From NCBI GenBank assembly GCA_029781045.1, contig JAKOXL010000053.1, positions 1 through 64,000 on the forward strand: a DNA stretch of 64,000 bases, in the 5' to 3' direction. A program made the position numbers and the translations under genes. The stretch comes from Bacillota bacterium (GTDB taxonomy: Bacteria > Bacillota > UBA994 > UBA5500). The notes under the pieces were generated by a model that was given only the letters and a program-made list of their open reading frames with translations, did not search any database and had not been told where the DNA came from. Shown here one piece after another: positions 5,877 to 11,730 of this stretch; the stretch's first letter is position 1; each line of letters starts with the position of its first letter.

Positions 5877-6863
5877 CTAGGGCGATAGCTCCAACTTCAT
5901 AACAGTGAAGGGATCGTCAACCTCCTCCGGAGCCTCCAGATCAAAGACGCTAAAATACAGTGTCATACCGTCCGGCGCCCACAATGGCGAGATAGCTATA
6001 CTGCCGCTGGTAAGCGGCACGGGAGTGGCCCCTGGGCTAGAGACTAGCAGAAGATCATATTGCAGTTCTCCAGTCTGCTGTAGGATGGCCACTTCTTCCC
6101 CGTGCTGTGGACGGGGAGCGAAGGCCTGCACTTGTGAATCCACAATAGTGCGGGCACTAGAGCCATCGGCAGCATTCACAACCCACAACTTTCCCTGCGC
6201 AAAAGGGTCGATGAGATATAGTTGATCCCCTACCACTTTAAAGAACTCGGCGTCAGCCAAACGCTGCAGTTCTCCTCCGGCCAAGGCAATGCTACCTACA
6301 AAGGGAGCCCCCTCGGCTGGTAGACTGTTCAGGAACAGCCGCTCTTCACCGGAGGGCAATGCCACCCACTCCAGCTGCAAAACCGATTCGGGAGTAGGCG
6401 CCACCGTTCGCAACTCACCGTCTAAACTAACTACCCCTATATCATTCCCAGCCACTACCGCGATAGCATCCCCCTTAGGTGACCAGGCTATGGGGCCCAA
6501 ACCTCCTTCATGTTCCAGCAAGACTCTTTGTTCACTACCATCGGCTTTGGCCAACCACATTTTATCGGCGACCAGAGCTAAATGCTCACCGGTAGAAGAA
6601 AAGGCGGCATAAAAGGACGTGGATAAGAACTCAAAGATCTTGTTACTGGTAGAACCATCAGCGGCCACCAGCCAAACTTCGTTGTGGTCTTCCGCCGTTC
6701 GAACAACAAGTAGGGTCTTGCCATCAGGGGTAATTGCTTTTGGCTCCCCCACGCCCAGATTAGCGGCCTGAGGTAAGGGTGTTTCTTGAGGGACGGGCCT
6801 ACAAGCAGAAATGACCAAAACGACGATGACTAACAACCAGATTGGGTTATGTCTTTGTTTCAA
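5877..6863 (-). CDS. Lipoprotein with TolB/WD40-like beta-propeller
   Basis: I take a TTG start at 6863, because AAAGGAG lies 9 bp ahead of it and the resulting 328-residue product begins with a proper lipoprotein signal peptide (hydrophobic core LLVIVVLVI, lipobox ISAC at about residue 21). A longer frame upstream to 7088 has no ribosome-binding site and no sensible N-terminus. The rest is a series of PD40/TolB-type repeats (ITPDGKTL, IAWSPKGDA, SPLWAPDG), giving a six- or seven-bladed propeller anchored outside the membrane. Function unknown; such propellers usually bind peptides or other proteins. Confidence 0.7.
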   Translation of the reverse strand: MKQRHNPIWLLVIVVLVISACRPVPQETPLPQAANLGVGEPKAITPDGKTLLVVRTAEDHNEVWLVAADGSTSNKIFEFLSTSFYAAFSSTGEHLALVADKMWLAKADGSEQRVLLEHEGGLGPIAWSPKGDAIAVVAGNDIGVVSLDGELRTVAPTPESVLQLEWVALPSGEERLFLNSLPAEGAPFVGSIALAGGELQRLADAEFFKVVGDQLYLIDPFAQGKLWVVNAADGSSARTIVDSQVQAFAPRPQHGEEVAILQQTGELQYDLLLVSSPGATPVPLTSGSIAISPLWAPDGMTLYFSVFDLEAPEEVDDPFTVMKLELSP

Positions 6864-7030
6864 TTGCTGGCACTCCTTTTGCTCCAAGCCTTCCTCTGCT
6901 GTTAGTATGCCTCTTCTCCCGTAAGTAACACGCAATGCATATTCGCAGGCGCCACGGGGGAAATATAAGATAGCACCTCTGCTAATGATGAAGGAGATGC
7001 GAGCACAACTTATACCCCAAAACCCCAAGA

Positions 7031-7068
7031 AGAAGGTGGAGCTTGTTTGACAGGCTCCACCTTCTTTT
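7031..7068 (+). terminator. Orphan terminator-like hairpin
   Basis: A perfect 12-bp stem (7031-7042 with 7054-7065) followed by TTTT on the plus strand. It stands in the space between two divergent lipoprotein genes, so it ends no annotated gene. It could attenuate the plus-strand transcript toward the gene at 7136 or end a small RNA. A possible 17-codon frame (7012 to about 7050, preceded by AAGGAG-like bases) runs into the stem but I do not call it a gene. Confidence 0.5.
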
Positions 7069-7135: not shown

Positions 7136-8254
7136 ATGAAGCAGCACCTACTCTGGCTATTGTCTTCTATCCTTCTGGCCAGTTGTTGCCTTGCTGCCTG
7201 TAGCAGCAACCAAGTTAGGATTCAGGAAATACAACTAGGGTTTACTAGAAGCGATTGGCAAGAAAGAGTAAGCTGGCAAGCTAGTGAAGATCTAAGGCAA
7301 CTGCAGCAAGAATGGAACCAGTGGCGGTCTCGTAGCGGCAGCCCTGCCAATCAGGAGCCCCCAAGTTATCGCTTGCAGGTGAAGTTTCTCGACCAAGAGC
7401 CACTAACTTTCTTCCTTACCCACGACTTGAGGCTTTTCAATGAAGAGCTGAACACTGAGTACTTGCCACCGTCCTATACACAGCAAATGCTGCAAGCTGT
7501 AGTAGAGCAATTAAGGCAACAACGTTTTGGCCAGCTCTTAAGTTGGAAAGAAGCCGATCGGCTGCTGCCCCGCTACAGCACGTTCCAGCTAATGGATCTA
7601 GACACGGGAATAACCTGGAGCGTACAAAGGCGAGCTGGTTCGGCCCACGCCGACATCCAACCTCTGACACGGCAGGATACCCAAAAGCTGAAAGCCGTTT
7701 ACGGCGGTCAGTGGAGTTGGGACCGGAGGGCAGTAGTCGTGCTGCTTGGTGACAGGCGCATCGCCGGTTCCATCAATGGTATGCCTCATGGTGCCGGCGC
7801 TTTGCAGAATGGGTTCCCAGGGCATCATTGTCTTCACTTTTGGCAAAGCACAACGCACACCAGGAGCAAGCCCGATCCGGCCCATCAGGTGATGGTACAT
7901 AAGGCAGCCGGCTCCCTGCTTCCCTATTTGCTGGGGTTAAACCCTGCCGACCTGCAGTTGACCATGTTAGAAATGGCGGGGCAAGGTGAAACCGATATAC
8001 TAAGGCTAGGTATTCGCAATCCCTCAGACTCCAATCCCAGTCAACTGGCGAAAGGCATTAGTAATATCAAAATCTGGGATAGCCGTTTGCTGGAAGAAAC
8101 AGCTGACCGCCTGTCCATTGAGTATAAGCTGAGCGTCTATTACGTGGACAACCCGAAAGAACACCGCAAGACTATTACCGTCACCAGCCGCTACCATGAA
8201 GAATGGAATAGGTGGCTAGTAGAACCTGACTTTCTGGAGCAGCTAGTTAGATAA
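7136..8254 (+). CDS. Lipoprotein with L,D-transpeptidase-like HG...HxCxH motif
   Basis: A 372-residue exported protein with lipobox LAAC (Cys 22). Residues about 145-260 form a block I recognise as a conserved but uncharacterised extracytoplasmic domain of Firmicutes: DTGITWSVQRR, then ADIQPLTRQDT, then WSWDRRAVVV, then NGMPHG (His 218) and GHHCLHF (Cys 232 flanked by His 230, 231, 234), then His 241 and His 250. The HG followed about a dozen residues later by a Cys in an HxCxH setting is like the YkuD L,D-transpeptidase active site, with the usual Arg replaced by His; this is my inference. GTGGAGGTG lies before the ATG. The end overlaps the convergent sirtuin gene by 12 bp. Confidence 0.7.
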   Translation: MKQHLLWLLSSILLASCCLAACSSNQVRIQEIQLGFTRSDWQERVSWQASEDLRQLQQEWNQWRSRSGSPANQEPPSYRLQVKFLDQEPLTFFLTHDLRLFNEELNTEYLPPSYTQQMLQAVVEQLRQQRFGQLLSWKEADRLLPRYSTFQLMDLDTGITWSVQRRAGSAHADIQPLTRQDTQKLKAVYGGQWSWDRRAVVVLLGDRRIAGSINGMPHGAGALQNGFPGHHCLHFWQSTTHTRSKPDPAHQVMVHKAAGSLLPYLLGLNPADLQLTMLEMAGQGETDILRLGIRNPSDSNPSQLAKGISNIKIWDSRLLEETADRLSIEYKLSVYYVDNPKEHRKTITVTSRYHEEWNRWLVEPDFLEQLVR

Positions 8255-8926: not shown

Positions 8927-9190
8927 CTACTTCTTTGCCTTGTCGACCTGGACATATATGGCCGCGTCAGGGCAGTGAAGCATACACTGGCGACAGACTA
9001 TGCAGCCGGAGGCATCAACGGTAACACGTAACGTGCCATAGTTAGCCGGCTTGTCCGACCAGGATATGACATGGGTAGGGCACTTTTCAATGCAGAGGCC
9101 ACAACCCTTGCATAGTTCAGGGTAAATGGTCCAAGTACCCCTGGGAGCTCGATGACGCTCGCCCTGATAGGACTTCTCTTCTTCACTCAT
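8927..9190 (-). CDS. korD: 2-oxoacid:ferredoxin oxidoreductase, delta (ferredoxin) subunit
   Basis: An 87-residue dicluster ferredoxin. Two complete motifs are present, CKGCGLCIEKCP and CIVCRQCMLHCP, each binding a [4Fe-4S] cluster. It is the electron-relay subunit of the four-part enzyme encoded here and passes electrons from the thiamine/Fe-S core to free ferredoxin. Its ATG overlaps the stop of korC (9187-9190), which indicates translational coupling. Last gene of the kor set in transcription order. Confidence 0.88.
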   Translation of the reverse strand: MSEEEKSYQGERHRAPRGTWTIYPELCKGCGLCIEKCPTHVISWSDKPANYGTLRVTVDASGCIVCRQCMLHCPDAAIYVQVDKAKK

Positions 9191-9879
9191 GGCCTTCCCT
9201 CCCCTTGCCAGCGTTCCTGCACAAAAGTGGCACCGCGTGCCAATGCCCGCAAGTTCAGCTCCCGTAACTCCAGATACTGCTGCAACTTGTCTCCCAGCTT
9301 AGCCAGCAGGGTCTCTTCTACCACTGACAACGGTAGCACCCTGCTGGCGGTTACAATAGCACCCAAGATAATCATGTTGAAAACTCGGGGCTTGAGCTCT
9401 TCCCGCGCAATGGAGGATGCTGGGATACCTACAATCCAGCGGGGCCTTACTCCTTCATTGACTGGGGGCCTGCCGGGTTCCTGGGGTTCAGTACCGACCG
9501 CTAGGCTAAAGGCCTCCGGCGCCACCGTATCCCAACCGTAAATGCCGATAACCTCGTCCCAAACATGAGGAGGTTCTATATCGGAGTTATCATAAATATA
9601 TATGGTGTCGCTGTGGATATACCTTTTGGTGCGTTCCATAGCCCGCCGGCTGAGGGGAACTAAGACATCCGCTTTCTCAAACTTGGGCGCTGCAATAGGC
9701 CCATTCGCTATTTGCACCATAGCGATAGAGACTCCACCCCGTTGCTCCACCCCAAAATTGGGGATGTAGAGGGCCTCTTTGCCAGCTCGGTAGGCCGACT
9801 CCGCCAAGATCTCACCAATCAGTTGCACACCTTGCCCGCCTTCGCCCGCCACTACTATCCGCCAATACTGCCGCCTCAC
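9187..9879 (-). CDS. korC: 2-oxoacid:ferredoxin oxidoreductase, gamma subunit
   Basis: A 230-residue protein of the pyruvate/2-ketoisovalerate ferredoxin oxidoreductase gamma family, beginning with the typical RIVVAGEGGQGVQLIGEIL. This subunit forms part of the dimer interface and helps bind coenzyme A. It overlaps both neighbours by 4 bp (korB stop at its start, korD start at its stop), consistent with a tightly coupled operon. It is longer than many gamma subunits (about 180-190 residues); the extra length is within the middle and C-terminus and shows no extra motif. Confidence 0.88.
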   Translation of the reverse strand: MRRQYWRIVVAGEGGQGVQLIGEILAESAYRAGKEALYIPNFGVEQRGGVSIAMVQIANGPIAAPKFEKADVLVPLSRRAMERTKRYIHSDTIYIYDNSDIEPPHVWDEVIGIYGWDTVAPEAFSLAVGTEPQEPGRPPVNEGVRPRWIVGIPASSIAREELKPRVFNMIILGAIVTASRVLPLSVVEETLLAKLGDKLQQYLELRELNLRALARGATFVQERWQGEGRP

Positions 9880-10646
9880 TGCTGCTCCTCCTCGCTCACC
9901 TTCGGCACTTTGATCTCACCCAAGGGGAAGTATTTGGTCATCTCATCATCCAGATAGCTCCAGGTTTGCTTGGCATTGGTGCGCCAGTTGGTGGGACAGC
10001 CAGACAAAGCTTCCACAAAGGAAAAGCCTCTACCCGCCAGCTGGTTTTCTATGGCCTGTTTTACATAGCGTTTTAAGCGGGGGAAGTTGGCCACTGTACC
10101 GCGAGCCACATAAGCCCGGTCACTGGTAATGGCTGCCACCATCTCGGGACCTAAAGTAGGTTGCCCGGTGGCTTCCGGATCTCTTCCATAGGGGGTTGTG
10201 CCCGTCTTTTGCCCCGGCAAGGTGGTGGGGGCCATCTGTCCTCCTGTCATGGCGTAAACCGAGTTGTTAGCCAACAACACGGTAATCTGCTCGTTCCGCA
10301 GGGCCGCATTAACCAGATGTTGCGCTCCGATGGCGTAGCCGCCCCCGTCTCCCATATAAGCCACCACGATGAGTTCCGGGTTTGCTCGCTTTGCCCCCGC
10401 CACTACCGGAATTGTTCGGCCATGGTGGGTCTGTACACTATCCACATTGAAGAAATCCCAAGCCAGTAAGGAGCAACCGATGTCGCAGCCAAAAACGGTG
10501 CGCTCAGCAATACCTAGTTCGTCAATCACCTCTCCCAAGGCTTTTAAGAAGATGCCGTGACCGCAACCAGGACAGAAACGATGGGGCTTACTGTCTCTGT
10601 TCCATGATTTGGGCATGGCTGGATTACGATCATGAATGATTTGCAC
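9876..10646 (-). CDS. korB: 2-oxoacid:ferredoxin oxidoreductase, beta (thiamine diphosphate) subunit
   Basis: A 256-residue thiamine diphosphate-binding subunit. FCPGCGHG near the N-terminus and the GDGGGYAIG stretch with a following NNSVYAMTGGQ match the cofactor site of KorB/VorB/PorB. I choose a GTG start at 10646, preceded by AAGGGGG; it overlaps the korA stop by 17 bp. A longer open frame to 10757 lies wholly inside korA and lacks homologous sequence. With korA it forms the catalytic core that decarboxylates a 2-oxoacid and transfers the acyl group to CoA. Confidence 0.88.
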   Translation of the reverse strand: MQIIHDRNPAMPKSWNRDSKPHRFCPGCGHGIFLKALGEVIDELGIAERTVFGCDIGCSLLAWDFFNVDSVQTHHGRTIPVVAGAKRANPELIVVAYMGDGGGYAIGAQHLVNAALRNEQITVLLANNSVYAMTGGQMAPTTLPGQKTGTTPYGRDPEATGQPTLGPEMVAAITSDRAYVARGTVANFPRLKRYVKQAIENQLAGRGFSFVEALSGCPTNWRTNAKQTWSYLDDEMTKYFPLGEIKVPKVSEEEQQ

Positions 10647-11730
10647 CTGAGTACCCCCTTTTGGGCAATAACTCTTCCGCTTGCCGTATGACTTGTTCCG
10701 CGGTGATACCGAGGCCGGGCCGCAGCAGGCCGTGAACCGGAGCACAACTGCAACCATAGAGAGCGTCTCTTACCAGAGACATGAGCTGCCCGTGGGCCGA
10801 TTCTACCACCAGTATTTGCTGGCTCTTGCCCGCTATCTCCTGCAAAGCCGTAATGGGGAAGGGGCGTAGCGTTATGGGACGGAAATGCCCAACTCGGTAA
10901 CCCTTCTCCCGCAACTGCTTACTGGCAGCCATGGTGGCTCGGGAAACCACACCGTGGGCTACAAGCAACAGGTCAGGCTCCTCATCTCCGCTCACCGACC
11001 ACTCCACCACTTCACGAGCCATCTGCTGCCATTCTGCTAAATGCTTCGATAGGGTCTCGTACAGTTCTTCTTCAATGTTAAAGGTGTTACGGTGATGCTG
11101 AACCTTTCCCTTCACGCCCAACATAGGGCTGGTGGACTGCAACTGAGTTCCCCGTGTTTGGGGGTCATACAGAGTCAAGGCCTCCCGCATTTTGGCCTGA
11201 TAACCATCTCCTAGCACAAAAGTAGGAAAACGATAACGCCAGGCATGATTAAAGGCCTTAAGGGTATAGTCGAAAATCTCCTGATGAGTAGCCGTTGAGT
11301 AGACCAAACGCAGGCCCTCACCATTGCCGCCAAAGCAGGTGAGCCTCGTTTCCTGTTGGGAGTAGATGACCGTGGCCGTGGAAGGGCCTCCCCGCTGCTG
11401 TATGAACCAGACGGCCGGTATGCGCATCATTTCCGCCATGGAAATGGGTTCTTGCATCAGCACATTTCCGGGTCCGGCGGTGGCACAAAAGGCCTTTTTC
11501 CCAGCCATTACCCCCCCTAGAGTGGCAAAACCTGCTGATAACTCATCTTCCGTTTGCAGAAAACCCCTGCCATACTTGGGAGCGAGACGGGTCCAGTAGT
11601 GCATAATCTCATTCTGAGGAGTAATGGGATAGCCATACATAATATCCGCACCGGCTGCTAACGCAGCCCAAGCAATCACCTCGTTACCCGTCATAAATGC
11701 TCGTTGCTCTTTTATAAAAATGGTGTCCAC
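10630..11730 (-). CDS. korA: 2-oxoacid:ferredoxin oxidoreductase, alpha subunit
   Basis: A 366-residue alpha subunit with the pyrimidine-binding region GYPITPQNEIMHYW, EDELSAGFATLGGVMAG and the ATAGPGNVLMQEPISMAEM stretch. The C-terminal third is the transketolase-like domain. The domain split into four genes alpha-beta-gamma-delta resembles 2-oxoglutarate (Kor) and branched-chain 2-oxoacid (Vor) enzymes; I cannot tell these apart here, so kor is a working name. GTG start with GGAGGAGG 7 bp ahead. In an anaerobe the enzyme either yields reduced ferredoxin or carboxylates acyl-CoA with it. Confidence 0.88.
   Translation of the reverse strand: MDTIFIKEQRAFMTGNEVIAWAALAAGADIMYGYPITPQNEIMHYWTRLAPKYGRGFLQTEDELSAGFATLGGVMAGKKAFCATAGPGNVLMQEPISMAEMMRIPAVWFIQQRGGPSTATVIYSQQETRLTCFGGNGEGLRLVYSTATHQEIFDYTLKAFNHAWRYRFPTFVLGDGYQAKMREALTLYDPQTRGTQLQSTSPMLGVKGKVQHHRNTFNIEEELYETLSKHLAEWQQMAREVVEWSVSGDEEPDLLLVAHGVVSRATMAASKQLREKGYRVGHFRPITLRPFPITALQEIAGKSQQILVVESAHGQLMSLVRDALYGCSCAPVHGLLRPGLGITAEQVIRQAEELLPKRGYSGANHS

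Follow-up and report, generated by a model that had tools for sequence, protein, structure and literature searches.

The stretch of DNA analysed here (the window) comprises 64,000 nucleotides of contig JAKOXL010000053.1 from a Bacillota bacterium (assembly GCA_029781045.1), and positions 7136-8254 of its plus strand hold an open reading frame that starts with ATG, with GGAGGTG six bases upstream. No other plus-strand gene was recognised between its two minus-strand neighbours, one lipoprotein-like and the other of Sir2 type, and the same pair flanks the homologue of Firmicutes bacterium UBA5500 (L001), a member of the same genus. Around the gene, neither a sigma-70-type promoter nor a terminator was recognised by the rules of the scan. 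Between the minus-strand gene and 7136-8254, a perfect inverted repeat (arms of 13 bases, loop of 11), then TTTG, occupies positions 7030-7066 and is perhaps a terminator; a 403-residue minus-strand reading frame with a TTG start would cross this repeat, and its true start is therefore likely to lie further in. A minus-strand cluster at 8927-11730 resembles, by eye, a 2-oxoacid:ferredoxin oxidoreductase. The gene and its parts are listed below.

7136..8254 (stop included), plus strand: coding sequence of a 372-residue predicted lipoprotein, seen as an open reading frame and from a same-genus homologue with 57% identity
7190..7201, plus strand: lipobox-like LAAC with Cys22 expected to be lipidated, assigned by eye and not by a signal-peptide program
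7220..7525, plus strand: N-terminal domain, residues ~29-130, from the secondary structure of the model and the architectures of members
7526..7915, plus strand: conserved core domain, residues ~131-260, from the alignment, with no credible library match
7646..7654, plus strand: H171-A172-D173 (His in 157/157 and Asp in 156/157 cores)
7775..7792, plus strand: N214-G-M-P-H218-G219 (NGMPHG), with H218 in 156/157 cores and 214 the column most associated with 232
7820..7840, plus strand: G229-H230-H-C232-L-H234-F235 (GHHCLHF), with Cys 126, Asp 30 and Gly 1 at 232 (n=157)
7847..7858, plus strand: S238-T-T-H241 (H241 in 153/157 cores)
7883..7885, plus strand: H250 (157/157 cores)
7937..8251, plus strand: C-terminal NTF2-like domain, residues 268-372, from a fold match to 8f3n (Z 10.7, rmsd 2.4, 100 residues aligned)

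The preliminary description had placed NGMPHG (residues 214-219, including His218) and GHHCLHF (residues 229-235, including Cys232) in this plus-strand frame, where both are present, and had called the product a lipoprotein, which agrees with a hydrophobic N-terminus, LLASCCLAAC22, ending by eye in the Cys of what we take to be a lipobox.

The window protein gave no match in Pfam, in NCBIfam or, by sequence, in the PDB. When 26 cores were compared with Pfam, PHROGs and NCBIfam, no credible family was found, and a profile of these cores retrieved no PDB sequence. The Gloverin entry PF10793 matched four of the 26 members (5.3e-5 at best) and was judged a chance match; the remaining Pfam, PHROG and NCBIfam names were each met in one or two of the 26, at 0.02 or worse. 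No description of the core domain was found in the literature searched. The protein is of a kind already known, a wall protein of spore-formers and probably an enzyme; the domain is uncatalogued in the libraries scanned.

Of the 398 genomes sampled from the phylum of the window, 139 carry the core, and they cover 100 of 266 genera. A scan of named genomes returned UBA5500 and two Paenibacillus, a plasmid collection supplied further members in Cytobacillus spongiae and Tepidibacter aestuarii, and a search for relatives gave matches in 38 of 101 genomes, the window's own included. The statement of the preliminary description that the block is shared by other Firmicutes proteins with no assigned function was borne out by the two Paenibacillus, by the Cytobacillus protein, annotated as 'hypothetical protein', and by the 139 genomes. 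In the window genome itself, a genome search found a single copy of the family, with one match to YkuD and two to VanW.

What members have in common in the alignment is the core (residues ~131-260), and the N- and C-terminal parts of the window protein recur, by eye, in some of them. Other members have LysM (one, two or four modules), PG_binding_1 or both N-terminal to the core, as in six of the nine bacterial members scanned, and their N-terminal parts differ from residues ~29-130 of the window protein. In a divergent subgroup (L086, L090 and L095-L100), the N- and C-terminal parts resemble those of the window protein. Another set (L087-L089, L091, L092 and L094) consists of Asp types with an insertion of ~20 residues between the PH and GHFD motifs and, by eye, LysM-like modules.

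The motif block exceeds what chance would give, and many polar residues of the core are invariant. In an alignment of 30 sequences, which included the window's own and left out a near-duplicate with masked parts and one fragment, H171, A172, D173, P176, D181, W195, S212, P217, H218, N225, G229 and H250 were kept in all 30, and C232 and H234 in 29 each. A larger set of 157 distinct cores was obtained from 213 aligned stretches, 12 of which were dropped for at least 30 gaps, the other losses being duplicates. In this set H171 was found in 157, D173 in 156, H218 in 156, H230 in 144, H241 in 153 and H250 in 157 cores. Cys232, the supposed catalytic thiol, proved common and not invariant: 31 of the 157 cores have another residue there, and in 30 of them it is Asp. 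The preliminary description had itself named a lack of conservation at Cys232 as grounds for giving up its reading. Among the dropped stretches, Asp was seen by eye at 232 in L095-L097 and L099, and Ser in L098.

The exchange at 232 leaves most of the conserved histidines in place and goes with changes at other residues. The 30 Asp types keep H171 (30), D173 (29), H218 (29), H230 (25), H241 (28) and H250 (30), whereas N214, G219 and H234, which are present in 114, 118 and 125 of the 126 Cys types, occur in 0, 9 and 16 of the Asp types; residue 214 is instead Ala (17), Ser (12) or Thr (1). Position 214 is the column most informative on 232 (mutual information 0.57, next 0.36), and on average 2.9 of 3 independent pairs show the two switching together, too few for significance. 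Cys to Asp is an exchange that needs two base changes. In a 74-row tree of 45 chosen Cys and 29 Asp rows, built with positions 214, 219, 232 and 234 excluded and with the long-branched L032, L041 and L093 omitted, six changes at 232 were counted (bootstrap range 6-7), three of them forced by starred branches, and a single change was obtained in 0% of 200 bootstrap trees. A 157-row FastTree tree gave nine changes, and the Cys rows L025 and L205 were nested among Asp rows. Asp types also occur alone, since 11 of the 27 genomes that carry one show no other copy; in 13 multi-copy genomes picked by hand, the Asp type is found alongside a Cys type.

The preliminary description had read the two motifs as a variant YkuD-type L,D-transpeptidase site, and there is indeed a likeness: an HG is followed by a Cys ~15 residues on, some YkuD domains also have a His two residues before the Cys, and the distance from H218 to C232 is 14 residues, close to the 16 of two YkuD domains from this phylum. 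One report describes wall-binding modules and lipoprotein forms among YkuD proteins (PMC12729407), as seen in the present family. The core nevertheless differs from YkuD in profile and in motif. None of the 26 members matched the YkuD HMM (PF03734) at E up to 10, and hhalign between the 157 cores and 30 YkuD domains from the phylum gave a probability of 0.2%, with the HG and Cys motifs out of register. In place of HG...[ST]-x-G-C-x-[RN], most cores have HG followed by G-H-F-C-[ILV]-H, and the Cys is Asp in 30 of 157 cores and Cys in 126, and is thus not conserved as in YkuD. By fold, no YkuD chain was among the 50 matches listed for the core by either Foldseek or VIA-align, an absence that does not exclude the fold, and the whole-protein search placed the YkuD protein Pgp2 (6xj7) at rank 34 (E 0.026, rmsd 19). 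The assignment to YkuD is therefore not supported.

Two further wall-related families were compared in the same way. For VanW (PF04294), 0 of 26 members matched the HMM and hhalign against 31 VanW domains gave 0.2%. Both VanW and the present family are found in Gram-positives, and in Paenibacillus alkaliterrae the family gene has a divergent neighbour for a VanW-PG_binding_4 protein at a distance of 184 bases (L002:2485-3417); in VanW the Cys precedes the His, whereas in the core it follows. One source reports a Cys/His site in VanW and treats it as an unrelated fold capable of L,D-transpeptidase chemistry (PMC12729407). For Amidase_2 (PF01510), again 0 of 26 members matched and hhalign against 26 domains gave 0.2%. 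Two papers describe a zinc site of His/His/Cys in the Ts2631 endolysin and T7 lysozyme and of His/His/Asp in AmpD and AmiE (PMC6361986, PMC7404271), so that in Amidase_2 one ligand is Cys in some enzymes and Asp in others, with use by phages and bacteria alike. The residue pattern of the core could fit an Amidase_2-like zinc site of His/His/(Cys or Asp); Amidase_2, however, is reported to have a mixed alpha/beta sheet, whereas the core model has six strands and few helices. As to the scale of these hhalign values, VanW and Amidase_2 themselves showed just as little relation to YkuD (0.2% and 0.6%), and the positive control, Asp types with the insertion against phage types, gave 99.9%, a weak control since its rows were cut from one profile alignment.

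The whole protein was modelled by AlphaFold2 from 11 sequences with a pLDDT of 84.5, and the core (residues 127-261) with a pLDDT of 92.1 and a pTM of 0.87. The core is predicted to have six strands in two groups of three, with one helix before, one between and one after them; we take it to be a six-stranded barrel, since the folds that it weakly resembles are barrels. Foldseek against the PDB gave 517 matches at E up to 10, none of them under 0.001 and the best being PilZ (E 0.063); VIA-align reached a Z of 6.5, such as chance or common barrels also give, and the best match in BFVD had an E of 0.099. Among the matches listed, none was a clear fold match of the core to a zinc amidase or peptidase, and the core is without the metal signatures HxH, HExxH or HxxxD. 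Residues 268-372 have an NTF2-like fold (Z 10.7 to the PBP5 N-terminal domain), and of the 11 blocks that begin at residue 271 or later, 7 have a pLDDT of at least 90, the lowest value, 65, being at 291-300. PBP5 and PBP2a share this fold in a domain, presumably the one named MecA_N, that lies on their N-terminal side; in the window protein, by contrast, it follows the presumed catalytic domain. A match of the whole protein to RsgI9 S1C-NTF2 (E 7.4e-5, rmsd 16) was ascribed mainly to the NTF2 part.

The distribution of the core is associated with spore formation. SpoIVA (PF09547) was found in 336 of 398 genomes, apparently the same sample as the core census, and occurred in 135 of 139 carriers of the core and in 201 of the 259 genomes without the core (Fisher p 2.9e-8, with related species not independent); the four carriers without SpoIVA are genomes that are 72, 75, 61 and 90% complete. 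Among the neighbourhoods, 9 of the 14 fetched being listed, two CotE-family genes that pass the cut-off lie beside the family gene in L245; in L251 the family gene is surrounded by a LysM-Hydrolase_2 protein and by CotE-like proteins that fall short of the cut-off (E 1e-4 to 3e-3); and in L246 a Gate-domain protein, taken by eye for YlbJ, lies near it. In seven of the nine no CotE-type gene was recognised, and six show no theme. That the window protein acts on the wall and is linked to sporulation is well supported, the spore link being a correlation.

The core is also encoded on nine distinct viral contigs of IMG/VR, and PG_binding_1 lies N-terminal to it in six of the seven phage proteins scanned. 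The family gene adjoins terminase genes in L048 and lies a few genes past a tail-protein gene and ahead of tRNA genes in L042; in L045 the preceding gene, whose main match is of unknown function, aligns by its end with that of an amidase PHROG (E 3e-7). That the phage copies are lysins is at most a fair guess. The window protein found no match among INPHARED phages; a phage member used as query matched 32 records through its PG_binding_1 part, and one match (H9) extends ~36 residues into the core. In a 168,960-base contig (IMGVR_UViG_3300031992_000016; L047 at ~5989-6672, also L035), the domain gene has three in-frame TAG codons and a final TAA, and the locus carries 20 tRNA genes, one of them with anticodon CTA (labelled tRNA-Pyl by ARAGORN), as L042 likewise does; the in-frame codons together with this tRNA gene suggest that TAG is read through in these large phages.

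By analogy, we tentatively favour, at close to even confidence, the reading that the core is a metal-dependent peptidoglycan hydrolase. The core would be a small, mainly beta hydrolase, an amidase or a peptidase, within a lipoprotein of the spore-forming programme, and would coordinate a metal, zinc being the most likely one, with a subset of H171, D173, H218, H230, H241, H250 and the Cys or Asp at 232. The N-terminal lipid would anchor it at the outer face of a membrane, and the NTF2-like domain would serve in binding or positioning; in paralogues LysM or PG_binding_1 modules precede the core instead, and in phages PG_binding_1 with the same core would perhaps form a lysin. A metal ligand at 232 is preferred to a catalytic thiol because this position has gone repeatedly to Asp, together with a partner residue, while most histidines stay, whereas the loss of a catalytic Cys would be expected to lead to drift to many residues. 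A hydrolase is the first choice because amidases of the Amidase_2 type show the same Cys/Asp exchange, a matter of analogy and not of descent. The wall modules of relatives, the association with SpoIVA and the near-constant H171, D173, H218, H241 and H250 also favour this reading. Against it stand the lack of a sequence match or, among the matches listed, a clear fold match to a zinc amidase or peptidase, the absence of the usual metal signatures, and the relaxation of N214, G219 and H234 in Asp types; in addition, H230 is not constant, and the divergent subgroup persists without much of the motif, HAD being kept in nearly all of its members and H-x-C/D...H mostly lost; from their sequences, these may possibly be pseudoenzymes.

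The best-surviving alternative, though rather unlikely, is a thiol enzyme outside YkuD, similar to an L,D-transpeptidase or carboxypeptidase, in which Cys232 would attack the donor stem, H218 would be the base and N214 and H234 would assist, the Asp-type paralogues being pseudoenzymes or binders. The retention of N214, G219 and H234 with Cys, and their relaxation with Asp, would be in keeping with a thiol site that pseudoenzymes have lost, as would the Cys types beside Asp types in the hand-picked multi-copy genomes; the near-YkuD spacing points the same way, and VanW is a precedent for such chemistry on an unrelated fold (PMC12729407). Against this, non-Cys cores went to Asp in 30 of 31 cases and not to Ser, Ala or Gly, and did so through several switches; Cys rows sit within Asp rows, H218 is retained in 29 of 30 Asp types, 11 of 27 Asp-type genomes have no other copy, and the Cys lies in a motif other than that of YkuD. 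Phages, moreover, seldom need a transpeptidase. Of the lipid-anchored wall thiol enzyme first proposed, the lipoprotein N-terminus and the wall setting, given the wall modules of relatives, have held; the thiol is weakened by Asp in 30 of 157 cores, and it could still operate in Cys types, where N214, G219 and H234 are kept.

It is also unlikely that the core is a non-catalytic domain which binds peptidoglycan or metal in spore envelope assembly, alone or with LysM or PG_binding_1. The persistence of copies with broken motifs (e.g., L086, L098 and L100), the members with four LysM modules and the CotE neighbours in L245 would agree with binding, but the invariant polar residues exceed what is expected of a plain binding surface, and PG_binding_1 would make a binding core redundant in the phage copies. 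Glycan cleavage by a lytic transglycosylase or muramidase, with Asp232 as the acid and the Cys types altered, is very improbable: GHFDL of the Asp types resembles what we take to be the HFD motif of GH45/expansin barrels and the core model has six strands, but the Cys of the majority (126/157) could hardly serve as an acid, and no such enzyme was among the core fold matches listed.

The metal-dependent hydrolase remains our preferred reading. The more comprehensive proposal, a new class of catalytic peptidoglycan enzyme with a fold absent from the PDB, tied to endospores, used as a phage lysin and toggling between Cys and Asp at 232 together with 214, is possible but doubtful. Roughly one in three genomes sampled from this phylum, in which spore-formers abound, carries a domain that is missing from the family libraries scanned and to which no solved structure is related by sequence. 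Should the domain prove to be a wall enzyme, it would be an overlooked part of spore envelope remodelling as well as a new phage lysin module, and the natural toggle between Cys and Asp offers a ready-made test of the mechanism of its site.
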